Shown here one piece after another: positions 1,092 to 22,816 of a DNA stretch of 22,816 bases (its first letter is position 1; the number at the start of each line of letters is the position of its first letter). The position numbers were made by a program, and so were the translations under genes. The notes below the pieces were generated by a model. The model did no database searches, was not told where the DNA came from, and was given only the letters and a program-made list of their open reading frames with translations. Origin of the DNA: a virus; the IMG/VR virus record IMGVR_UViG_3300031980_000006, positions 1 through 22,816 of that record; one strand, given 5' to 3'.

Positions 1092-1580
1092 ATGGACGGT
1101 CAAGCGGTAGTGAAGTCGGTGGTCAAGGCGGTGGAAGAGGTCTTACATGAAATCAAGCAAGCCTTACGGGATGAAATTTCACTGGCTACAAATGAAATTT
1201 CAAAGTCACGAAATGAAATTTCACAGGGCGACGATGAAATTTCAAGGCGTGAAATTGAAATTTCATCAGCTGCGATTGAAATTTCATCCGATGAAATTGA
1301 AATTTCAGGGCGCGACAAGCGCGGCAAGGGCTCGCGCTATAGCGGTCGAGAGACTGTTAGACAAGGCGTGGCTGAAATTTCAAGTGAAATTTCATCCGTT
1401 GCAATTGAAATTTCACCTGAAATCGCCGGTCAACCTAAGCCGCTCAACGCTAAGGCTGTCGCGGCTATCCTACGCCGCAATCCTGAGCTGCTCAAAATGC
1501 GCGGCAAGGATTTGGCGGCAAAGTTTGGCGTTACGCCGGTCGTCATCACTAGGGCGAGGAAGTTAGTGGAGCATGGCTAA
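1092..1580 (+). CDS. Heptad-repeat protein with C-terminal helix-turn-helix; gene carries an embedded palindrome array
   Basis: The product has 162 residues from ATG 1092. An alternative TTG start at 1056 overlaps the upstream stop as TTGA and would add 12 residues, so the start is uncertain. The middle is built of seven-residue units, each with Glu-Ile-Ser at the same place (seven in a row, then three more after a basic linker). With the N-terminal VVKAVEEVLHEIKQAL this could form a coiled coil or amphipathic helix. The last 50 residues (KAVAAILRRNPELLKM, then LAAKFGVTPVVITRARKL) look like a helix-turn-helix DNA-binding domain. Every Glu-Ile-Ser is encoded GAA ATT TCA and is preceded by T, so each makes the palindrome TGAAATTTCA. 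I infer a DNA-binding protein that acts on sites inside its own gene, as lambda O does, but no family assignment is possible by eye. Confidence 0.75.
   Translation: MDGQAVVKSVVKAVEEVLHEIKQALRDEISLATNEISKSRNEISQGDDEISRREIEISSAAIEISSDEIEISGRDKRGKGSRYSGRETVRQGVAEISSEISSVAIEISPEIAGQPKPLNAKAVAAILRRNPELLKMRGKDLAAKFGVTPVVITRARKLVEHG
1172..1415. repeat. Array of ten perfect TGAAATTTCA palindromes, seven at an exact 21-bp period
   Basis: Perfect copies of the 10-bp palindrome TGAAATTTCA begin at 1172, 1193, 1214, 1235, 1256, 1277 and 1298 (six consecutive steps of 21 bp), then at 1373, 1385 and 1406 (steps 12 and 21). Degenerate copies TGAAATCA at 1148 and TGAAATCG at 1418 flank the array. The period of 21 bp is two turns of B-DNA, so all seven sites face the same side of the helix. 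The bases between sites vary. All ten copies lie in the same reading frame of the HTH gene. This is typical of iterons, operator clusters or partition sites. It is not a CRISPR array, because the spacers are only 11 bp. Confidence 0.95.
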
Positions 1581-4855: not shown

Positions 4856-5179
4856 TTAGCTTTGGCTATCCTCCGGGATTTCCCCCGTCTCTAGAATACG
4901 CTTCAATACGCCCGCAATGTAGGCAACGACCTGCTCGGCGGCGTAGTTGAACTCGTCACGATAATGCTCTAAGATCGCCTTGCTACCCCGAATTCGAAGC
5001 GCGTCCGGCGAAATGCGGTGCTTGTCGATCGCCAAATCAATGAAAGCATCGTACTTCTCATCAATGATTGACTTGACCGATCTAGAGACGCCTAAGTCGT
5101 GCATGAGAGTAGAGGTGGTCACCGAAACCAACAGACGACGCTCTTCATCGCTTAGCTGCTCGAATTTACGCTTGCTCAT
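4856..5179 (-). CDS. Small helical protein of unknown function, the only leftward gene
   Basis: The product has 107 residues starting at the minus-strand ATG whose first base is 5179. A strong AGGAGG lies eight bases before this ATG. An ATG two codons earlier is only two bases from the AGGAGG and is less likely. The sequence is hydrophilic and probably helical (KFEQLSDEERRLLVSV, then KSIIDEKYDAFIDLAIDKH), without cysteines or membrane segments. I recognise no domain. It is transcribed against all other genes, convergent with the terminase gene, and its upstream side is the 680-bp control region. That position is common for phage regulators, but the sequence itself has no clear helix-turn-helix. 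A dyad AGGCTAACGCCT lies 27 bases upstream of the start. Confidence 0.7.
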   Translation of the reverse strand: MSKRKFEQLSDEERRLLVSVTTSTLMHDLGVSRSVKSIIDEKYDAFIDLAIDKHRISPDALRIRGSKAILEHYRDEFNYAAEQVVAYIAGVLKRILETGEIPEDSQS

Positions 5180-5258
5180 AAGCATACCCTCCTACACACA
5201 AAATTAGGCTAACGCCTCCAATCGAGACATTTGCTGAAAACGCGATTTTTGAGGCTTT

Positions 5259-5298
5259 CTGAAGGTTTTTGGAGCTAGGGGTATAATCACTAGGGGTA
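5259..5298 (+). promoter_or_regulatory. Promoter-like site with perfect TATAAT flanked by 9-bp direct repeats
   Basis: A perfect -10 box TATAAT lies at 5282-5287. The best -35 at 17-bp spacing is only CTGAAG (5259-5264). The 9-bp repeat CTAGGGGTA occurs at 5275-5283 and 5290-5298, a 15-bp period that overlaps and follows the -10. Such placement fits an activator- or repressor-controlled promoter, or one read by a phage sigma factor. It would fire rightward toward the gene at 5862. Confidence 0.4.
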
Positions 5299-5310
5299 AG
5301 GTAGTTCGTA

Positions 5311-5330
5311 GGGCTTGTAGCCCGATTTTT
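5311..5330 (+). terminator. Short hairpin followed by a T-run
   Basis: GGGCT-tgt-AGCCC (5311-5323) is followed by GATTTTT. The stem is only 5 bp, so it is a weak intrinsic terminator or attenuator. It lies about 25 bases past the likely start site of the TATAAT promoter at 5282 and could limit readthrough from it. Confidence 0.3.
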
Positions 5331-5364
5331 GAGGCATTTTGATACGCTACGCAACTAAAAGCCA

Positions 5365-5404
5365 CCCCCGAAAAAAGAGAGACCGATCCCCCCGCCCCGC
5401 CCCC
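5365..5404 (-). other. C-rich tract; G-runs on the minus strand with G-quadruplex potential
   Basis: The plus strand has C-runs of 5 (5365-5369), 6 (5388-5393), 4 (5395-5398) and 5 (5400-5404). The minus strand therefore has four G-runs of at least four, with loops of 1, 1 and 18 bases. That satisfies a loose G-quadruplex pattern with one long loop. Formation is not shown by the sequence alone. Confidence 0.4.
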
Positions 5405-5581
5405 TCAATACAGCCCGATTAGAACAGTTGAGCGCGACAGTCAACGCTAAGCGTGAGCATTGCGATAACCCGCTCAAGCGCTGCCGATCGCCGGCGGGCG
5501 CGATTGGCGGGACTAGCGAAGCCTATCCCCGCTAAGGCGCGTAAGGGCGTTGGCAATTTAGGAGGGAAGCGATAGGCGAGG

Positions 5582-5629
5582 TAATTAGCTAATTAAGGGG
5601 GGTTGACCGAATTTAGGGTATTATATAAC
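5582..5629 (+). promoter_or_regulatory. Promoter-like site with upstream 14-bp palindrome
   Basis: TTGACC (5603-5608) and TATAAC (5624-5629) are separated by 15 bp, shorter than the usual 16-18. A perfect palindrome TAATTAGCTAATTA (5582-5595) lies directly upstream and could be an operator or an AT-rich UP-like element. It would drive the gene at 5862 with a leader of more than 200 bases that contains the large inverted repeat. Confidence 0.35.
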
Positions 5630-5681
5630 TTAGCAGGTTTTGGCGATAGCCCAAAAATGCCGATCAGAGCTAGGGCGGCGG

Positions 5682-5747
5682 ATTTTCAATTTCACTGCAA
5701 ACTCACCATTAAATATTTAATGATGGCTTTGTAGTGAAATTGAAAAT
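5682..5747. repeat. 66-bp imperfect inverted repeat with AT-rich palindromic centre
   Basis: The arms are 33 bp each, centred between 5714 and 5715. The outer 15 bp (ATTTTCAATTTCACT and its complement) match perfectly, then one mismatch, then CAAA, then a partly mismatched stretch, and the centre is the perfect 14-bp palindrome ATTAAATATTTAAT (5708-5721). As DNA it could extrude a cruciform; as RNA it forms a long hairpin without a U-tract, so it is not a simple terminator. Each arm holds TGAAATTGAAA (right arm 5735-5745, complement 5684-5694). The same 11-mer occurs in the palindrome array at 1250-1260 and 1292-1302. This makes it a candidate second binding locus. Confidence 0.85.
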
Positions 5748-5861
5748 GCGTTGGCTGCTGCCTCCTCTGCTTGTCGTTTTCTTGTCCGGCGGCTTTGGTT
5801 GAGTTACTAGGCTGCTCTAGCGTTCGGCAGCGCTGCTAAGTTGCTTTAGAGGAGATAGCGT

Positions 5862-6704
5862 ATGGTCTTGCCAATTTTCAGTTTGGCGCGGCAATTCAAC
5901 TTTAGAGTCGTGATAAAAGACGGCGCTTACTTGTTAGGCGGCGCGGGTTTTGCATTCATCCCGATCGAGGGCGCTTTCAAGACGGCGCGCAAAATCCTGC
6001 GCATTCCACCTGAGGACGGGCGACTTCGCTTTGAAAGCGGCGTGGTTATCGTCGAGCGCGATAATGGGCTGAGCCTTGCTGAGGAGGCTTTGGCGACCGA
6101 GCCTTATAAGCACAAGCTACCGCGCCGCAATCGGGAGCGCATATTGCGCGGGTTCACTATCCCTAACAACATGCTCCCCGAATGGATAGGCGGTCTTAGC
6201 TTACCCGCCGCCATAAGCGATCATTTGGTTTGTTTACCCGCCCGCCGCGTTAGCTTTTCGGATGGATATGCAACGGTTTTGACGCCTGACTGCCATATCT
6301 CGACGCCTATCAATCCTGAAATTGATATCGGCAAGGCGTTCGATATGGGCTTGATACTCACGGCGCGGGCGTTATCCTTCTATAGCTGCGCGGTTGTTGA
6401 AAGCGGTTTGCGATATTCCGATAACACACGCGGAGTGTACGTATTTGCGCAAGCGCTCAAGCCGCTCAAGCCTTGTCGCTTTGAAGGCGGCGATGTGATT
6501 CCAGCGCATATGCTGAGCTACCGTGTCTTGGGTGAAGAGGCTGTGGTTGATTTAAGTTGTATTGATCGCGAGCCGATTCGTGTCTCGCGCAGTCCGTTTG
6601 TGGCTATGATGCAAACTGCTAAGACGATCCGCATCAAAGTGGTTCGGAATTTCGCAATGATTGAAACCGAGAGCGGGATCGGTAGCCTCAGGCTGAGGAG
6701 TTGA
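5862..6704 (+). CDS. Unrecognised protein between terminase and portal genes
   Basis: The product has 280 residues from ATG 5862, with AGAGGAG seven bases upstream. It is mostly predicted beta-strand with alternating hydrophobic residues, no membrane segment and no cysteine cluster. Repeated strand-turn-strand units such as LRFESGVVIVERDNG and IRIKVVRNFAMIETESGIG loosely resemble the strands of DNA polymerase sliding clamps, which have short glycine turns at similar places. I could not find a clamp signature, so this is only a thought; a clamp used in late transcription, as in phage T4, would fit the sigma factors nearby. It is the first gene after the control region and ends two bases before the portal start, so it is co-transcribed with the head genes. 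A structural role is equally possible. Confidence 0.75.
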   Translation: MVLPIFSLARQFNFRVVIKDGAYLLGGAGFAFIPIEGAFKTARKILRIPPEDGRLRFESGVVIVERDNGLSLAEEALATEPYKHKLPRRNRERILRGFTIPNNMLPEWIGGLSLPAAISDHLVCLPARRVSFSDGYATVLTPDCHISTPINPEIDIGKAFDMGLILTARALSFYSCAVVESGLRYSDNTRGVYVFAQALKPLKPCRFEGGDVIPAHMLSYRVLGEEAVVDLSCIDREPIRVSRSPFVAMMQTAKTIRIKVVRNFAMIETESGIGSLRLRS

Positions 6705-10205: not shown

Positions 10206-10239
10206 GCCGTTGACCTGGACGGGTTTGATTCGACCTCAC

Positions 10240-10263
10240 AAGACCGCTTCGGCGGTCTTTTTT
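10240..10263 (+). terminator. Intrinsic terminator with UUCG tetraloop
   Basis: The perfect 8-bp stem AAGACCGC / GCGGTCTT closes a TTCG loop and continues into a six-base T-run (10258-10263). This is the best terminator in the window. It ends the small gene at 9816-10205 and separates it from the capsid gene. Confidence 0.92.
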
Positions 10264-10308
10264 CTCCTTAACAAGCGCCTTGCTAAGTTCCCTATAGAGG
10301 TGAGCGTT

Positions 10309-12447
10309 ATGAGTTGCAAGTATGCTTTTGTCCGCTCAATAGACGGCGATCGTATTCAAGGCTATTTGGCGCTCTGGGGAACGCCCGATCAGCCCGATTG
10401 TTTCGGGACGTGGTTCGACCGCGACGAGCCGCCTGACTTCGGCTTGATTGACGGCGCGCCAATCCGCCTGATGTATGAGCATGGGCAAGACCCTGAAGTC
10501 GGCAAGACGGTAATCGGCAAGGTTGTGCGCACATGGCATGACGATATCGGCGTCGCCTTTGAAGCGGTCTTGTTTTCAGATAATCCTTATTATCGGAAGA
10601 TACGGGATGAAATCAAGCTCGGCTTGTTAGGCGTGAGCAGTGCGTCCGCTGAACATCTTGCCGAGTTTGATGAGGATGGGCGGTTCAGGACATGGTTGCT
10701 ATCTGAGGTTAGCCTTACAAAACGACCGTGCGAACCGCGCATGAAAGTATTGCATGTCGAGTTAACGCGTGATGCGATTCCTGTCTACCGCGCTAAGTTG
10801 ATTGAAGACGATACAACGAGGAGAGATGAAATGGCTACTACACGGTCTTTTGAGGAAATGGGCATTCCGCCCGATGTTGACGCGACTCAGCTCCTGTCTT
10901 CATTGATTGAGCGGGACGGTGTTGAGAGCGTCGTCGCGCTTGTGAAGGCTATGGTGGGCGTTGATTCTATGCCTAGCAACATGGCTGAGATTGCAGAATC
11001 CGTCGAGCAATCGGCGGAGGAGGACGCATCTGTTAGCGACGCGGACGACGCGCCTGAGGATGATATGGCTGAGGAGGACGAGGACGAAACCGAAACCGCT
11101 AAACCCGCCCGCCCGCGCCAAAAGGTCGTCGCCGATCCGAAAGCGGTCGCTAAAGAGATGCTGCGCATGGTTATGCAGCAACCAAAGGAGCGTAAGCCCG
11201 TGATTACTGACGTCCGCGATCGTTTTTATGACGCTCACACGCCCGGTCAATTGGCTTTCGGATATCAGACAGTGCAGCATCTGGTCAAGGCGGGGCGCTT
11301 GGAAAGCTCAGCGCTGCGCGGCGACTTTTTGGCTCGTTTGGCGGCTAAGACCCGTTCTGAGGTGGCTCGCGGCGCATACGCGCGGCTCATGCCGCCCTAC
11401 CGCGCCAATGAAGTCGTGCATACGGGGCAAGCGGGATTCGGCGCGGAATGGATGCAGACCTTGCCCGGCACGGAGCTGTGGGAAAAGGTCTATAGCGAAG
11501 CTCGCCTTTTCAACGCGCTTGTCGAGCGCGGGCTGAACTATGGTGAAATCCCGCGCGGTCACAATCAAGAGACTATTTTGGTCGAGGGCGCTAGTCCGAC
11601 TTTCTATGTCGCGGGTGAGGTCACTGACGTGGCTTCTAACAGCGCTATCCCGACTCCTACATTCGCGACTTCAAAGTTCGCCACAGCTAAGCGCACGCTG
11701 AGCATCAAGAAGCTCGGCGCGGCTGTTGTCTTGTCACGCGAGATGCAAGAAGACACGATCTTTGACGTCCTTACCCAGACCTATACGCAATTGCAGCGTA
11801 AGGCGGCTGAGGAGATCGAGTTCGTCTTGATTAACGGAGATGAGGCGACTGCGGCTAACACGAACATCAATCTGATCGACGGCACGCCGAGCGCAGCCCC
11901 GACGCGCCCGTCTTACCTGCTCTTCAACGGCATTTTGAAGCTGCCGTTGGTCACGAATACGGCGCTCGCCTATGATGCAGGTAACACGCTGACGCCTGCC
12001 GTGTTCCTTGAGCTGCTCAAGCGCTTGCCCGCCGCCGATCAAATCCCTAGCGACCGCCTGTTGTATGTGATGGACATGGACACGGCGATCAAGACGATGT
12101 CGCTTGCCGAAGTGCAGACGCGCGATGTTTTCAGTTTGGCGACTCTTGAGAACGGCATGTTGCCCTTCCTGTACAAGATCGGCGTCTTGCCGAGCGCTTT
12201 CATGTTCAAAGGACGGGCTTCAGACGGTAAGCGGTCGGGTACTGACTCGAATAACAATCGCGGTCGTATCGCGCTAGTCCGCGCCGATCGCTGGGCTTTC
12301 CGTTACAAGCGCCAAATTGAGATCGAGACGGATCGCAACGTTTACACCGATAGCACGACCGTCGTGTGCTTCCTCCGTTGCGGCTTCACTAACTTTGCAG
12401 ACACGACGGGCGCGACGGCAGCCTACAATGTGAGCGTGTCGATCTAA
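10309..12447 (+). CDS. Prohead protease fused to HK97-fold major capsid protein
   Basis: The product has 712 residues from ATG 10309, with AGAGGTGA about six bases upstream. An in-frame TTG at 10183 lies before the terminator and is rejected. Residues 1-160 form an S78-type prohead protease: His 58 in RLMYEHGQDPEVGKTVIGKV, a serine at 110-113 in GVSSAS, and Glu 133 in LSEVSLTKRP, the expected catalytic triad. An acidic segment (about 235-270) resembles the HK97 delta domain used as internal scaffold. The remainder is the capsid fold, with VLSREMQEDTIFDVLTQTY, EEIEFVLINGDEA and VRADRWAFRYKRQIEIETDRN near the C-terminus. The protease should cleave the scaffold and itself during head maturation. 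A strong internal start at 10831 probably yields capsid protein without protease. Confidence 0.93.
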   Translation: MSCKYAFVRSIDGDRIQGYLALWGTPDQPDCFGTWFDRDEPPDFGLIDGAPIRLMYEHGQDPEVGKTVIGKVVRTWHDDIGVAFEAVLFSDNPYYRKIRDEIKLGLLGVSSASAEHLAEFDEDGRFRTWLLSEVSLTKRPCEPRMKVLHVELTRDAIPVYRAKLIEDDTTRRDEMATTRSFEEMGIPPDVDATQLLSSLIERDGVESVVALVKAMVGVDSMPSNMAEIAESVEQSAEEDASVSDADDAPEDDMAEEDEDETETAKPARPRQKVVADPKAVAKEMLRMVMQQPKERKPVITDVRDRFYDAHTPGQLAFGYQTVQHLVKAGRLESSALRGDFLARLAAKTRSEVARGAYARLMPPYRANEVVHTGQAGFGAEWMQTLPGTELWEKVYSEARLFNALVERGLNYGEIPRGHNQETILVEGASPTFYVAGEVTDVASNSAIPTPTFATSKFATAKRTLSIKKLGAAVVLSREMQEDTIFDVLTQTYTQLQRKAAEEIEFVLINGDEATAANTNINLIDGTPSAAPTRPSYLLFNGILKLPLVTNTALAYDAGNTLTPAVFLELLKRLPAADQIPSDRLLYVMDMDTAIKTMSLAEVQTRDVFSLATLENGMLPFLYKIGVLPSAFMFKGRASDGKRSGTDSNNNRGRIALVRADRWAFRYKRQIEIETDRNVYTDSTTVVCFLRCGFTNFADTTGATAAYNVSVSI
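10818..10833 (+). promoter_or_regulatory. Internal ribosome binding site inside the protease-capsid gene
   Basis: GAGGAGAG (10818-10825) precedes an in-frame ATG at 10831 by an ideal distance. It sits exactly at the boundary between the protease domain and the scaffold-capsid part, which argues that it is used. Confidence 0.75.
10831..12447 (+). CDS. Major capsid protein from internal start (nested in the fusion gene)
   Basis: This nested product has 538 residues and begins MATTRSFEEMGIPPD. It has its own near-perfect ribosome binding site and lacks the protease domain. It contains the acidic delta-like segment (about residues 60-95) and the whole HK97 capsid fold. A head needs hundreds of capsid subunits but few proteases, so separate initiation would supply the excess. 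Nested head genes sharing a C-terminus are known in lambda (C and Nu3), where the short product is the scaffold. Here the short product would be the capsid itself, with the full-length fusion as a minor component. Use of this start is inferred from sequence, not shown. Confidence 0.75.
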   Translation: MATTRSFEEMGIPPDVDATQLLSSLIERDGVESVVALVKAMVGVDSMPSNMAEIAESVEQSAEEDASVSDADDAPEDDMAEEDEDETETAKPARPRQKVVADPKAVAKEMLRMVMQQPKERKPVITDVRDRFYDAHTPGQLAFGYQTVQHLVKAGRLESSALRGDFLARLAAKTRSEVARGAYARLMPPYRANEVVHTGQAGFGAEWMQTLPGTELWEKVYSEARLFNALVERGLNYGEIPRGHNQETILVEGASPTFYVAGEVTDVASNSAIPTPTFATSKFATAKRTLSIKKLGAAVVLSREMQEDTIFDVLTQTYTQLQRKAAEEIEFVLINGDEATAANTNINLIDGTPSAAPTRPSYLLFNGILKLPLVTNTALAYDAGNTLTPAVFLELLKRLPAADQIPSDRLLYVMDMDTAIKTMSLAEVQTRDVFSLATLENGMLPFLYKIGVLPSAFMFKGRASDGKRSGTDSNNNRGRIALVRADRWAFRYKRQIEIETDRNVYTDSTTVVCFLRCGFTNFADTTGATAAYNVSVSI

Positions 12448-15526: not shown

Positions 15527-15816
15527 GGCGTTCAGCATGGCGCGCGCAGTTCAGGCAAGCCATGATTGAACGCGCGCGCAACGCCGTAATTCCGGAGTCA
15601 ATCACATGCGAGCCAGATGATTGGGCTTTCAACTACCCGCCAATCATGGTCTTGCTTGGCTTTGATTTATGGCGTATGACCGATTTCACACGCCTGCCGA
15701 CGCCTGAGGAGGTCGCTCAAGTCGACCGGCGATGGATTGAAGATTTGAGCGTGTGCTACGCGCTTTATCAGCACAAGGTGGAATGGTATAGGTGGCATGT
15801 TCAAAGCAACGCTTGA
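15520..15816 (+). CDS. Tail assembly chaperone, frameshift extension (T part of G-T)
   Basis: This 98-codon extension is in the -1 frame relative to G and has no good independent start: TTG 15523 and ATG 15562 both lack a ribosome binding site. Joined at CCCTTTA it would give a G-T fusion of about 256 residues. It contains WRAQFRQAMIERARNAVIP and a Trp-rich segment (DDWAFNYPPIMVLLGFDLWR). G-T proteins in lambda and most siphoviruses bind the tape measure through G and recruit tube subunits through T. Its stop overlaps the tape measure start by 20 bases, which fits coupled expression. Confidence 0.85.
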   Translation, partial: SLRRSAWRAQFRQAMIERARNAVIPESITCEPDDWAFNYPPIMVLLGFDLWRMTDFTRLPTPEEVAQVDRRWIEDLSVCYALYQHKVEWYRWHVQSNA

Positions 15817-18529
15817 AATCATCCTCAAAGGCGCTAAAGAAAGCGCGCGGTCGGCTGAATCGCTGACTGCGTCGCTCAATCGCGCTAAGAAAAGCGCAGA
15901 AGCCTTGCAAGGCGCGGGCTTGAGCGGGCTTGAGCGGCAAGCGCGTTCGGCGGCGAGCGCGACCGAATCGTATGCACAGCGGATTAAGCGCGCTCAGCTT
16001 GAAATGCGCGCGTTAGGCGAATCGGCGCAACAAGCCTCTCGATCCGATTTCCGCCCATTGCTCAGCCAATTAGACGAAGTCGAGCAGAAAGCAAAACGCG
16101 CCTCAAGCGCCTTTTCGAGTTCGGCGACAGGCGCGGCGGAATCTTATACGCAGCAAATTAAGCGCGCGCGGCTCGAAATGCGAGCGTTAGGCGAATCAGC
16201 GCAACAAGCCTCGCAATCCGATTTCAGTCCGTTGCTTAGCCAATTAGACGATGTCGAACAGAAAGCAAAGCGCGTTTCAAGCGCCTTTCCTTCTAATCTC
16301 GCCAATCGTTTTGGCGGTGTGGTTGGCGGGTTAGTAGGGGGGCTTGGCACGACGATTGGCGGCGCGTTTGGCGGGGGCGGCGGCGTTGCACTCAGCGCGG
16401 CTTCGAGCGCTGTTGGCGCGGGGGTCGCGACGGGTGTAGGGAAAGCTGGGTTCGGTAAGTTAGCGTTTTTGGTTGGCGCGGTCAGCGCAGCGATAGGAGC
16501 TGTGGAGGGCGTTTTTTCAGAACTCGAAAAAACGATTGAGCGGCAAGTGGAGCGCTTCAAGGCGATTCAACAGAATCTCACTAATGTGGCGGCTTTCACT
16601 GCAACAGCGACGCGCAGTCAAATAGAAGCAGAGCTTACCTCTTTACAAGCAGAGGAGAAACAAAATGCGGCTCGGCGTGAAGCCATTAAGAGACAGATTG
16701 ATCAAGTTAATGCAGCGGCGGACGAGGTCGCTAGAAACAACCCGTTTCATCCGATCATCCGAGTTGCGGCTGAGGCTGCACGGTCGCGCTATGTCGGTGA
16801 GTTAACCAAACAATTAGATGATTTGGAGATTGCATCTAATAAAAACAAGGACGCTCAAGCGAATCTAAGAAAAGCGCTTGAGGACGGCACGGTCGCCGCT
16901 AACAATGCAGCGCGCCTTGAGCAGGTATTGAAGGAGACGCGCCTCGCTCAAAACGTGCAGGCGGAGCGCACGACCGTTCAGCTTTACCAAGATTTGGCTA
17001 GAGCGCAACGCGAGGGCGGCGCTAAAGCGATCCGCGCGCGGCTTGATAGCTTGCGTGATGAGGAGGCGGCGATTAAGGCGGCTCTTGAGCGCTTGAACCG
17101 TATTCCAAAAGATCAATTGCGTGAGGACGAAATTCAACTAATTGCCCAGTACACTTTACGCCTTGCTGAAATTCAACAGATTATTGCCAACACAGAACGC
17201 GATATCTTACCCGCAGCTGAGGCTCGCGATCGCGAAATTGAGGCGATGGAAAGGCAGCGCCGTGTGCAGGAGGCGCTCACAAGGCAACGTGAGCGCGATG
17301 TTCAGCGGGCTATCCAAATCGTGGAGCAATTGAAACAACTTGACGCGGATTTCCAAGAAAAACAACGTTTGAAGGCGGAAGAGGCTGCTATACAGGCTCG
17401 ACGGGATTCAGAGGCGGCGGAATTTCAGGCGCGGATTGAGCGCGCAAAAGAGGCGGAGCGGGCGGCGGCTGTTCAGGCGCGCATTGCCGATATTGAGCGG
17501 GACACGGCGCGGCGTATCGCCGATTCGCGCGCTAAATTTGCTCAGGAGTCGCTTAAAGCCGCGCGCCGCTTTAACGAGCAACGGGCGCAAATTGAGCGCG
17601 ATTTCATGCGCAGAGAGCTTGACGCGCTTGAAAAATTCCGCTTGAGCGAAGCGCGACGGACTGAGGACTACTACCGCGACCGCAATCGCCGTTTAGAGGA
17701 CTTGCAAGCGCAATTGACGGAATTGGCGGCGGAAGGCGATGTGGCGGGCTTTATTGCCGCGCAACGGGCGGGCGAGCGCGATTTGCGGCGCACGGCTGAG
17801 GATTTCGATGTTGCGGGGCGGCGCGCTAGTGAAGACTTTTTGCGGGAGCGGGAAGAGGCGCGGCGCGCTTTTGAAGAGCGGCTCGCCGATTTGCGCAACA
17901 ATTACGCTCAGGAGCGCGCTGAACGGCAACGCGCTTTGCAGGATCAGATTGCCGATATCAAGCGCGCTAGTCAAGAGCGTATTGCTCAAGAGCGCGAGTC
18001 GCTTGTGAAGCGGATTAGCGAATCACAGCGGATTGAGCAAGAATTCGCGGCGCGTCGTTTACAATGGCAAGCGGAGGATCAGGCTCGCCGGGAGCGGCTT
18101 GAGCGCGAGGGGTATGAAAAGCAACGCGCCGCCCTAATTGAAGAGCAAAAGCGGCTATTGCCTGTTGTTAGACAGGCTTTCAAACCCGTCGAGCAGTTAC
18201 TGAATCAGGTGGGTCAAACCGCTCTGCGGGTCTTAAACCTGTTCAGCGGGGGGCGATCGAGCGGGGGTAGGGTTGTAGCGAACGCAACAGGGGGTATCTA
18301 CACAAGCCCTACAATCGGCTTGCTCGGCGAGCGGCGCGGATTCGGCGATATCGTGATACCTTTCAAGAAAAGCGAAGGCATTGAAAACGCCTTGAATCGC
18401 TTCTCAGCTAAGGCGGGCAATAAGACGGTCGTGGTCAATATCGGGCAAATTGGCGGCGATCCGCAATTTGTAAGGGCTGAAATTGATAAGTTAGGATCGA
18501 GGATAATCGAGGCGCTGATGAGCGAGTGA
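15797..18529 (+). CDS. Tail tape measure protein
   Basis: The product has 910 residues from ATG 15797, by far the longest complete structural gene after the protease-capsid and portal fusions. It has an Ala/Ser/Lys-rich helical N-terminus, a Gly- and Ala-rich hydrophobic stretch at about residues 171-241 (GGVVGGLVGGLGTTIGGAFG and on) that could insert into the host membrane, and about 450 residues of charged coiled coil. The C-terminus has a glycine turn and NATGGIYTSPTIGLLGERRG, a motif common near the end of tape measures. At roughly 1.5 angstroms per residue the tail would be near 135 nm. It sets tail length and probably helps DNA entry. A 58-residue tandem duplication lies in the N-terminal part. 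Confidence 0.95.
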   Translation: MFKATLEIILKGAKESARSAESLTASLNRAKKSAEALQGAGLSGLERQARSAASATESYAQRIKRAQLEMRALGESAQQASRSDFRPLLSQLDEVEQKAKRASSAFSSSATGAAESYTQQIKRARLEMRALGESAQQASQSDFSPLLSQLDDVEQKAKRVSSAFPSNLANRFGGVVGGLVGGLGTTIGGAFGGGGGVALSAASSAVGAGVATGVGKAGFGKLAFLVGAVSAAIGAVEGVFSELEKTIERQVERFKAIQQNLTNVAAFTATATRSQIEAELTSLQAEEKQNAARREAIKRQIDQVNAAADEVARNNPFHPIIRVAAEAARSRYVGELTKQLDDLEIASNKNKDAQANLRKALEDGTVAANNAARLEQVLKETRLAQNVQAERTTVQLYQDLARAQREGGAKAIRARLDSLRDEEAAIKAALERLNRIPKDQLREDEIQLIAQYTLRLAEIQQIIANTERDILPAAEARDREIEAMERQRRVQEALTRQRERDVQRAIQIVEQLKQLDADFQEKQRLKAEEAAIQARRDSEAAEFQARIERAKEAERAAAVQARIADIERDTARRIADSRAKFAQESLKAARRFNEQRAQIERDFMRRELDALEKFRLSEARRTEDYYRDRNRRLEDLQAQLTELAAEGDVAGFIAAQRAGERDLRRTAEDFDVAGRRASEDFLREREEARRAFEERLADLRNNYAQERAERQRALQDQIADIKRASQERIAQERESLVKRISESQRIEQEFAARRLQWQAEDQARRERLEREGYEKQRAALIEEQKRLLPVVRQAFKPVEQLLNQVGQTALRVLNLFSGGRSSGGRVVANATGGIYTSPTIGLLGERRGFGDIVIPFKKSEGIENALNRFSAKAGNKTVVVNIGQIGGDPQFVRAEIDKLGSRIIEALMSE
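15965..16291 (+). repeat. In-frame tandem duplication (174-bp unit) in the tape measure gene
   Basis: The unit begins at 15965 and again at 16139, exactly 58 codons apart. Both copies encode ESYxQxIKRAxLEMRALGES followed by AQQAS, SDFxPLLSQLD, VEQKAKR and SSAF. The DNA of the copies is still closely similar, with differences mostly at third positions. The last seven residues of the unit are not repeated. Confidence 0.93.
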
Positions 18530-19489: not shown

Positions 19490-19693
19490 ATGGACAAGCT
19501 AATGGTGAAGCTAGTCTTAGCGTAGGCGTTGGGCGTAAGCGTATGCTTTTCATTAGTAATGGCTGCAGGGTATTTGTGTTTCGGCTTAGGTCTTAGAGAC
19601 GGGTTTAGCAAAGGCGTGTTTTGGCTTGTCGTGACCGTCATTTTAGGCATTGTTTGGCTTTTGACTACCGATGAAAGGTACTGGAAGGTCTAG
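19490..19693 (+). pseudogene. Small two-helix membrane ORF interrupted by an in-frame amber codon
   Basis: From ATG 19490 (GCGGGGTG upstream) the frame reads MDKLMVKLVLA, then TAG at 19523-19525. It continues without another stop for 55 codons, ALGVSVCFSLVMAAGYLCFG and FWLVVTVILGIVWLLTTDE among them, to a TAG at 19691. The whole would be 67 codons with two strong transmembrane segments and a short charged tail, a holin-like shape. A single C-to-T change from CAG would create the amber. No start with a ribosome binding site exists after the TAG; ATG 19559 cuts the first helix. It is either a recent pseudogene, a gene read through by a suppressor tRNA, or a chance frame. The end overlaps the ThyX ribosome binding site. 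Confidence 0.55.
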
Positions 19694-19697
19694 CGCC

Positions 19698-20480
19698 ATG
19701 TTGATTGAAAACGTTTTGGATCGCGGCTTCGTTGAGCTTCAAAGCGTAACGCCCGCCTTCGATCCTGTCGTTGAGCGAGAGCGCGTCCAGCGCGGGCTGT
19801 TAACATCCGCCGATTTAGCGGTCGTTAACGCGGCTAGGGTAAGTCGGCTAGGGGCGAGCGTGTCAACGGAGTCAGACAAGCGTCTTATTCAATATTTGGC
19901 AAGCCATAAACACACTACACCTTTTGAGCATGTAGTGTTCACTTTTCGTGTCAAAGCGCCAGTAATTGTATGGTGGCAATGGATTCGCCATCGCTGGGCT
20001 TCATACAACCTTCAAAGCGGGAGATATACCGCTTATGAAGAAAACGATTGGTATATCCCTATCGAATGGCGTAAGCAAAGCAAAAGCAACAAGCAAGCCA
20101 GCGCGGGCGTCTTGCCTGAAGATCAGTGTACTATACTCACCGAATCTTTGATAGAATTGTACGAACAAGCCTACACCCTTTACAAGGAGGCTCTTGATAT
20201 GGGCGTTGCGCGAGAGCAAGCGCGTCTTTTCTTACCCGCCTTTGGCGTGTATTACATAGGCTATGTCACAGCTAACTTGTGGTCTCTACTGAACTTCATC
20301 AGGCTGCGCGACTCGGACGAAGCGCAGGCTGAAATACGGCAATACGCCGTCGCTATCGGGTCGTTAATCAATCGCGTTGCTCCGGTGAGTTACGCGGCAT
20401 GGCTTGAGCGCGGCATGTCTATTGCCGGTAACGACGGTATACCTAAACAGATGCAATCGGATTTGGCACACGGGGAGTGA
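19698..20480 (+). CDS. thyX: Flavin-dependent thymidylate synthase ThyX
   Basis: The product has 260 residues from ATG 19698, with GGAAGG nine bases upstream; an ATG at 19671 has no ribosome binding site. The family signature RHRxxSxNxxSxRY is complete as RHRWASYNLQSGRY at residues 97-110. Other ThyX features are the early helix KHTTPFEHVVFTFRVKAP and the C-terminal LFLPAFGVYYIGYVTANLWS with the FAD- and dUMP-binding helices. ThyX makes dTMP from dUMP with methylene-tetrahydrofolate, using NAD(P)H and FAD, and it is common in phages as a nucleotide supply gene. Its place in the tail module, away from any other replication gene in the window, suggests insertion together with the metallophosphoesterase. 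Confidence 0.95.
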   Translation: MLIENVLDRGFVELQSVTPAFDPVVERERVQRGLLTSADLAVVNAARVSRLGASVSTESDKRLIQYLASHKHTTPFEHVVFTFRVKAPVIVWWQWIRHRWASYNLQSGRYTAYEENDWYIPIEWRKQSKSNKQASAGVLPEDQCTILTESLIELYEQAYTLYKEALDMGVAREQARLFLPAFGVYYIGYVTANLWSLLNFIRLRDSDEAQAEIRQYAVAIGSLINRVAPVSYAAWLERGMSIAGNDGIPKQMQSDLAHGE

Positions 20481-20929: not shown

Positions 20930-22816
20930 AGCCTACTAGCGCGCTCACAACAGCGCAACGCGACTCGCTCAAGACGGCTAGGGCGACCGCTTGGTTTTAT
21001 GCGCGCCCAGATACGGTCGTCGCCACTCTTACCGTGACAAGCGCCCTGAACACGCTAGAGGGGCGCGTCAATGTGAGCGGATCGCTCTCAAACGTGACAG
21101 CCGACATGACGGCTAAGGTCAAGCGCGGATCGAACCTTGTCGGTTACTACCGAATCCGCAAAGTGGGCGGCTCTGAACTCTACTTAGGCGCGGATGTAAA
21201 TGACAAGGGCTTGTTTCAATTCGGGCAAGCGCTGCCACCAATCGCCGCTAACGACACGATTGAAGTCTTAAACCGCTACGATTTGACGGCAAAAATCCCG
21301 CGCATTGATACGGGCGCGTCCGTCATTTATGAGGACTACGATATCGCCTATAGCGACCAAAACACGACGCCTGCACCTTACGGGCGCATTTGGATTCGCG
21401 AGGCGGCAAGCGGCGCTTGGAGTACGCATTACGGAGGCTTCACAAGCGGCTCGACAATAGACCTTGACATTCGCGTCGAGGCGTACTCTTTTGTGAGCGG
21501 CGCTTACAGCTTCAACTTCACGTTTCCATCATCGTGGGTTGTGCTATCCTCAAACACGACCGCGCTTGTCGCCGAGCGGCAAGTCCGCGTGCCAATCGGC
21601 GCGTTCAGCTTCACTTGCACCATCACACAAAACGCCAAAACGCGCACTTTGACGCGCTACGTCGTGGTTGACGACCGCGCCAATCCTACGCTTTTCAAGG
21701 AGCTGCTTGATTTCAACGCCGAATTCACAACAGAAGGCGTCCGCTTATCGGGACGCCTGCGCGCTCAAGACGCGCAGACCTATCTCAGCGGTATCTCTCA
21801 AGGCGCGTTCAGCCTGATCGCTCTCGACACTGAACAAAATGCCGCATTTTCGAGGGTTTACGCGGGATTTTTTGACGGGGGTAGTTATACCTCACGAGAG
21901 GCGGAAAGGGCGGCTCAAATCGCCATTTTTGACGTATCCGAAACGCTCAGGCGAGTCTATTGCGCCTCTCAACTTTTCGAGCGCAAATCAACAGTTGATA
22001 CATGGCAAAAATTGCCTCAGGCGCTCAGTCATCCCGCTTTTGCCGTCTATTGGCTTTTGGATTGGCGCGTCGCCAATTACCATCGCCTGTTCAATTTTGA
22101 AGTACACGGAACGGCAGCGGATTACAAGGCGATTGCATTGAAGTCGGATCGCGGCTCGGTTTGGCAGGCGATTCAAGCCATGACAGGTCGCTTGCCGACT
22201 GCGATTTTATGCGCAAGCGCGGACGGGCTTCGCATTGATGTACGCCCTGAACTGTTGAGCGCAACAGCGCGCAACGCAATCATCACACGCCACACGATCA
22301 CGGAAGATGATGTTTCAAGCCTGAACATATCGGTAGCGCAACGCGCGCGTTACCGGCGCGTTAGGCTTGCTGCCTTTTTGCCCGTCGCGGCGGATGATGA
22401 AAAGCCGATTCCGATTAGATCGGGCGCGACGGCGATCAACGGCGAGCAAGAGCAGGACATAGACGGCTTGTTAGCGTTCAGTCAAGCCGAGCTGAATCGC
22501 GTTGCGGGCGACACGCTTGCCGCGCTCAACGCGCCGTATGAGCGGATTCAATATGAGCTGATCGGCGCGCTCGGCATGGCTTTCATGCCGTATCACCAAC
22601 AATTCGTAGGCAACAACATCGCGCAAGCCTATCACGAGCTTTTCAGCGCGGCTTTCACGCAACGCTGCATTCCGGTAAGCCTCAGCTTGACTGTAGAGGC
22701 AGGCGGCGTTGCGCGGACGAGCTTGACTGTCAAGCCCGAAACGGACGGCGCGGACGGCGTCACCTTGCCGATACCTATTGAGGGCGAACACAGCATCGTC
22801 GAGCCGTTTGAATTAC
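20926..22816 (+). CDS. Large distal tail protein, baseplate hub-like, 3' end outside the window
   Basis: The frame opens at ATG 20926, overlapping the preceding stop, and stays open for 630 codons to the window end. The N-terminal 250 residues are Thr/Ser/Val-rich beta structure, perhaps Ig-like (LTVTSALNTLEGRVNVSGS, RTLTRYVVVDDRANPTL). From about residue 330 it has DVSETLRRVYCASQLFER, GSVWQAIQAMTGRLPTAIL, ADGLRIDVRPELLS and ITEDDVSSLNISVAQRARY. This order (a helix before a small domain, 'D-G-x-x-x-I-x-P', then a line with S-L-N-I-S) resembles tail hub and tip proteins of the gp27/Tal group. I infer a hub or tip protein for host attachment. The missing C-terminus could hold a lysin or fibre domain. 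Confidence 0.75.
   Translation, partial: MKPTSALTTAQRDSLKTARATAWFYARPDTVVATLTVTSALNTLEGRVNVSGSLSNVTADMTAKVKRGSNLVGYYRIRKVGGSELYLGADVNDKGLFQFGQALPPIAANDTIEVLNRYDLTAKIPRIDTGASVIYEDYDIAYSDQNTTPAPYGRIWIREAASGAWSTHYGGFTSGSTIDLDIRVEAYSFVSGAYSFNFTFPSSWVVLSSNTTALVAERQVRVPIGAFSFTCTITQNAKTRTLTRYVVVDDRANPTLFKELLDFNAEFTTEGVRLSGRLRAQDAQTYLSGISQGAFSLIALDTEQNAAFSRVYAGFFDGGSYTSREAERAAQIAIFDVSETLRRVYCASQLFERKSTVDTWQKLPQALSHPAFAVYWLLDWRVANYHRLFNFEVHGTAADYKAIALKSDRGSVWQAIQAMTGRLPTAILCASADGLRIDVRPELLSATARNAIITRHTITEDDVSSLNISVAQRARYRRVRLAAFLPVAADDEKPIPIRSGATAINGEQEQDIDGLLAFSQAELNRVAGDTLAALNAPYERIQYELIGALGMAFMPYHQQFVGNNIAQAYHELFSAAFTQRCIPVSLSLTVEAGGVARTSLTVKPETDGADGVTLPIPIEGEHSIVEPFEL

Follow-up and report, generated by a model that had tools for sequence, protein, structure and literature searches.

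A conserved inverted repeat marks the two apparent control regions in a group of uncultured phages

The 22,816-nucleotide stretch of viral DNA analysed here (IMG/VR record IMGVR_UViG_3300031980_000006, hereafter 'the window') carries a 66-bp inverted repeat (IR) at positions 5682-5747. This IR is a genuine, conserved control element that is not a terminator. It belongs to an undescribed small family of phages that carry it twice per genome, once in each of two divergent intergenic gaps, in a fixed orientation to a downstream box and to the motif GMTAAGTTG. The IR probably serves as a switch for the two principal gene blocks of these phages. The explanation ranked first, tentatively and from sequence comparison, is that it regulates both rightward operons in cis from duplicated copies, and does so most likely as a DNA operator.

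Distribution of the inverted repeat

Two close relatives of the window phage, both phage contigs, are IMGVR_UViG_3300031878_000002 (43,370 bp; G1) and IMGVR_UViG_3300002920_000041 (43,140 bp; G2). The latter is probably complete because it has a 77-bp direct terminal repeat. Each relative carries two copies of the IR. Copy 1 (21425-21494 in G1 and 21667-21734 in G2) occupies the same place as the IR of the window, and copy 2 (5443-5509 and 5594-5662, respectively) lies 16 kb upstream. The window is a 22.8-kb fragment and the second site is beyond its reach, so that five IR copies are available in total. Profile searches revealed no third copy, and pattern scans of viral and genome collections added no further member.

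Within the phage collection that was searched, nothing is closely related to the group that carries the IR. Searches with the large terminase subunit (TerL), the 280-aa protein encoded next to the IR, the portal protein and the primase recovered only G1 and G2, plus one remote portal match. Named phages are distant: the best TerL matches mostly show approximately 30-34% identity (Thermus, Meiothermus and Halorubrum phages, many of the best being phages of thermophiles), portal matches stay below 30% identity, and the primase has no match among them.

Two other origins for the repeat were considered and rejected. It is not a mobile element or MITE, as copies 1 and 2 reside at fixed syntenic places and the single-arm matches seen in further viral contigs do not form inverted repeats. 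Nor is it an element of host genomes, where an inner-arm scan of genome contigs returned only unrelated hairpins that lack the outer arms. Inverted repeats with TTCACTACAAA...TTTGTAGTGAA arms, unrelated to the IR, are present on three contigs of the Ruminococcaceae MAG RUG12602 (L034 2989, L035 6019 and L040 1332), and these seem to constitute a separate dispersed repeat.

Sequence and structure

The arms of the IR (5679-5714 and 5715-5750) are 36 nt each and 86% complementary, and they enclose the 66 bp that an earlier note on this DNA had described as an inverted repeat with a palindromic AT-rich centre. That description proved accurate in its coordinates and in placing ATTAAATATTTAAT at the middle. 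The layout consists of 21-bp outer arms, a mismatch, a 5-bp inner stem and a 12-nt AT-rich loop. Its predicted folding energy (-39.6 kcal/mol, compared to -14.1 +/- 2.8 for shuffled sequences; z = -9.0) is far beyond chance. Each of the five copies forms one hairpin only, with 26 pairs, which is strong on the + strand in every case (z between -9.0 and -10.2). The - strand folds about equally well, so that energies favour neither strand.

Intrinsic terminators have a G+C-rich stem followed by a T-run. No T-run is found 3' of the IR and the terminator scan does not list it, which bears out the earlier statement that it is not a normal terminator. The IR has no match in Rfam, and a known RNA family was ruled out on this ground.

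When the five copies are aligned, the sequence of the 21-bp outer arms is near-constant and the loop varies freely. The flanks of copies 1 and 2, unlike the outer arms, can scarcely be aligned. Standard pairs fill 94.6% of the base-pair cells, a value for which the shuffle control is not decisive with only five sequences. Three pairs are altered in both partners, chiefly within the inner stem, where the variants CAC/GTG, CAT/ATG and CGC/GCG all retain pairing. One-sided changes that keep a G-U pair were counted by hand in five alignment columns for the + strand versus three for the - strand, and a comparison of G-U with C-A changes gave no clear bias as to the strand on which the IR might act.

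Architecture of the control regions

In these phages leftward genes precede each rightward gene block, creating two divergent gaps. Those of G1 measure 427 and 668 bp and hold one IR each; the gene map shows no other divergent gap. The corresponding region of the window (5186-5861, 676 bp) lies between a single leftward gene of 109 aa (4856-5185, - strand) and the first gene of rightward operon B (5862-6704, + strand), which encodes a 280-aa protein with no family match. Operon B, which follows copy 1, continues with portal, capsid/head and further structural genes. Block A, which follows copy 2, encodes a primase-like protein, a DNA helicase, a family-A DNA polymerase (PolA), a methyltransferase, the array open reading frame (ORF) discussed below, two sigma-70 region 2-like proteins, a TerS-like protein and TerL. 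None of the neighbouring genes tested matched a regulator family.

The IR is followed in the same orientation by the box TGTCAGSCGSYTTWG, at a spacing of 34-35 nt in four of the five copies and of 46 nt in the other. This box is confined to the two IR regions in G1 and G2 and has one mismatch in the window, where the sequence 34 nt past the IR reads TTGTCCGGCGGCTTTG (5779-5797, + strand; TTGTCAGSCGSYTTWG in the relatives). At both junctions GMTAAGTTG comes after TGTCAGSCGSYTTWG and ahead of the first gene. In the window the motif takes the form TGCTAAGTTG (5834-5843, + strand), immediately 5' of the ribosome binding site that precedes the ATG of operon B's first gene. At copy 2, GMTAAGTTR is located ahead of the leftward gene as well as the rightward operon.

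Further elements recur to the left of the IR. The motif GCTAAGTT (5627-5634, - strand) is part of a block, TATATAACTTAGCAGG, that is conserved in all three phages; it is also found 5' of the leftward operon at copy 2, and again 5' of the capsid gene, right after intrinsic terminators. The block TTTTTGAGGC (5246-5255, with a second copy at 5326-5335) stands to the left of the window's IR and of the IR at each G1 site. On the basis of these similarities, the two IR regions look like control regions made of the same parts. A BoxA-like sequence between the IR and the box, YGCTCTTTA, was dropped from the comparison as only YGCT is common. Sigma-70 scans identified no promoter in the window region and no convincing promoter in those of the relatives' divergent gaps that the scans covered.

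Intrinsic terminators occur directly 5' of the capsid gene at 10239-10310 and, as a tandem pair, in G2 (L032 6206-6313). A sequence, TTGCTAAGTT, found 20-30 nt 5' of the capsid start and likewise at both IR regions, is a candidate phage promoter motif. Two adjacent proteins encoded at 1573-2277 and 2261-2998 weakly match sigma-70 region 2, with Pfam E values of 2e-4 and 6e-4 that do not reach the curated cut-off, and the PHROG sigma factor family with E values of 1.6e-9 and 1.4e-3. They are possible phage sigma factors that could recognize GMTAAGTTR.

Possible mechanisms of gene control

The IR lies ahead of the gene that opens each rightward operon, with replication and packaging genes following copy 2 and structural genes following copy 1, and would act on the transcription of both. 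A putative phage regulator might bind the sequence-constant 21-bp arms as an operator or upstream site, so that a single signal would reach the two operons together and perhaps the leftward genes too. This DNA operator is our first choice, albeit at a confidence that falls somewhat short of an even call. The presence of one IR in each divergent gap, with the box in fixed orientation, argues for it, and the near-constancy of the outer arms where the flanks of the two copies diverge favours recognition by a protein. The high proportion of standard pairs, the three two-sided changes, and the placement of replication genes after one copy and portal and head genes after the other are further points in its favour. 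On the other side, arms of 21 bp are long for a simple dimer operator, and the sigma-70 scans found no convincing promoter in the regions covered, so that the IR may lie either upstream of a promoter or inside a transcript. The inner stem, which continues to pair despite base changes, is better suited to a hairpin, although quasi-palindrome template switching or correction could be an alternative source of this covariation. Ranked second, as possible but clearly less probable, is a leader RNA: promoters would lie upstream of the IR, and its hairpin in the 5' leader would act on RNA polymerase by antitermination or serve as an RNase III site for processing or stability. The strength of the + strand hairpin in all five copies and the inner-stem covariation speak for this, as do the two copies placed 5' of two operons in operon orientation, like putL and putR (PMC9378689). 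So do two tandem intrinsic terminators within operon B, 5' of the capsid gene (G2, L032 6206-6262), beyond which transcription would have to read through or start from a new promoter. Against an RNA are the lack of strand preference in folding or in G-U columns, arm sequence that is conserved rather than pairing alone, a possibly promoter-like GCTAAGTT downstream of the IR, and the empty Rfam search. The substitution pattern does not separate operator from leader. A more specific version, in which a new RNA hairpin heading both rightward operons controls operon read-through, by itself or together with a phage factor, in the manner of put or nut sites but with a single hairpin, is unlikely.

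The earlier note had seen in the IR the typical layout of a replication origin or recombination site, which would then exist in two copies per genome. This is quite improbable. The AT-rich palindromic centre would suit such a role, one copy adjoins the replication operon, and near copy 2 the GC skew reverses its sign. However, the skew shows no switch at copy 1, and the switch at copy 2 coincides with a change in gene direction. An origin would be expected to show a skew switch and initiator-binding repeats, but iterons are absent beside the IR, where the only repeats are its own arms. The location of the IR in divergent promoter-type gaps, before operons and with an oriented box, points instead to the control of transcription.

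Relation to the palindrome array

Block A harbours a second unusual element within ORF 1056-1580. Here ten copies of the 10-bp palindrome TGAAATTTCA, mostly spaced 21 bp apart, form an array at 1172-1415. This palindrome is the conserved unit of the array in all three phages, which carry 10, 7 and 14 copies, respectively, and none elsewhere. The EIS triplets of the encoded repeat are spelled GAA ATT TCA in 31 of 31 cases (10, 7 and 14), even though TCA is a minor serine codon in the window (13.6%). Under window codon usage the nominal probability of this spelling is approximately 2e-17, a value that presumes independent repeats, an assumption that duplication violates. The spacers between units have diverged, making a DNA-level constraint on the palindrome likely. 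These patterns strongly suggest selection at the DNA level, for an iteron, operator or pac-like array, within a coding gene. By eye, the C-terminal end of the ORF 1056-1580 product resembles a helix-turn-helix, and the search of the array protein against solved structures gave nothing significant.

The earlier note had proposed that the array and the IR, 4 kb apart, bind one protein. As it had noted, the word TGAAATTGAAA occurs exactly four times in the window, at 1250-1260(+) and 1292-1302(+) in the array and at 5684-5694(-) and 5735-5745(+) in the IR. As one arm duplicates the other, their occurrences amount to a single one. Simulated first-order Markov sequences gave one or more 11-mers common to an IR arm and the array in 1.9% of trials, and common to the 676-bp intergenic region and the array in 6.4%; across the whole window 4.6 shared 11-mers are expected. 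Within the array the word forms solely at units that have GAA ATT codons in front of them (two of the ten units in the window), and it has been lost from three of the four IR arms in G1.

Other comparisons gave similarly faint signals. Local alignment of each IR to the array of its own genome, with shuffled IRs as the null, yielded p = 0.03 in the window, 0.06 and 0.12 for the two copies in G1, and 0.10 and 0.08 for those in G2. A structure-aware IR profile ranked the arrays of all three phages next, as non-significant matches (E 0.17-2.2), an echo attributable to the palindromic nature of both elements, and a 12-mer, GTGAAATTGAAA, is common to the IR and one array position. These observations would favour two sites of one protein, the ORF 1056-1580 product, perhaps with DNA looping. 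This is the least probable reading of all: the sharing of TGAAATTGAAA is weak, with shared 11-mers expected by chance elsewhere in the window, TGAAATTTCA is absent from the IR, and a sequence-only IR profile does not find the array, leaving the proposed link unsupported. The resemblance is probably due to chance, and we judge the array to be an element separate from the IR, with its own strong DNA-level constraint. The expectation that the two occur together in related phages held, in that all three carry both and the array was never found without the IR, among three near-identical layouts only.

Comparison with known phage control elements

Among known systems, the IR may work most like a duplicated phage control site, such as the paired operators of lambda or putL and putR of phage HK022. 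The kind of element is already known; the IR family is new. The operators of phage lambda are clusters of 17-bp sites that adjoin the repressor gene and overlap promoters. The IR resembles OL and OR in that the same palindromic site is found at two divergent control regions, and differs in having one 66-bp palindrome per region and no recognized repressor gene nearby.

The put RNA of HK022 is transcribed and suppresses termination without protein factors. The IR is like putL and putR in its length of approximately 70 nt, its two similar copies per genome, its stable pairing, and its position before major operons in fixed orientation. The two HK022 elements, each approximately 70 nt, are located downstream of early promoters, and each folds as RNA into two stem-loops that contain internal non-canonical pairs (PMC9378689). 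In contrast to these two consecutive stem-loops, the IR is one long, near-perfect hairpin whose transcription is putative; because of this difference in fold it is not classed as a put RNA.

Phage RNase III sites, such as the T7 R sites and lambda sib, are transcribed stems of approximately 20 bp or longer, near operon boundaries, that are cleaved in vivo. The IR likewise has a stem exceeding 20 bp at such a position, but its arm sequence is conserved beyond pairing. The lambda O gene provides an example of an iteron origin inside a phage replication gene. The array at 1172-1415 shares with it the regularly spaced DNA words within a coding gene, whereas the IR is free of iterons and located outside the array gene, for which an initiator role is only putative. 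The combination of IR, box and GMTAAGTTG is compact, and this cis element may explain the co-regulation of replication and structural operons.

Additional observations

A 173-bp direct tandem duplication with 84% identity (15942-16288) is located near the start of a 910-aa ORF (15797-18529), a possible tape-measure gene. Two viral contigs and Parabacteroides gordonii (L043 3219, L045 3101 and L037 5739) have in common a conserved TTCACTACAAA-armed stem-loop that has no relation to the phage. The protein encoded at 19671-20480 contains RHRWASYNLQSGRYT, which by eye is like the motif of the flavin-dependent thymidylate synthase ThyX.
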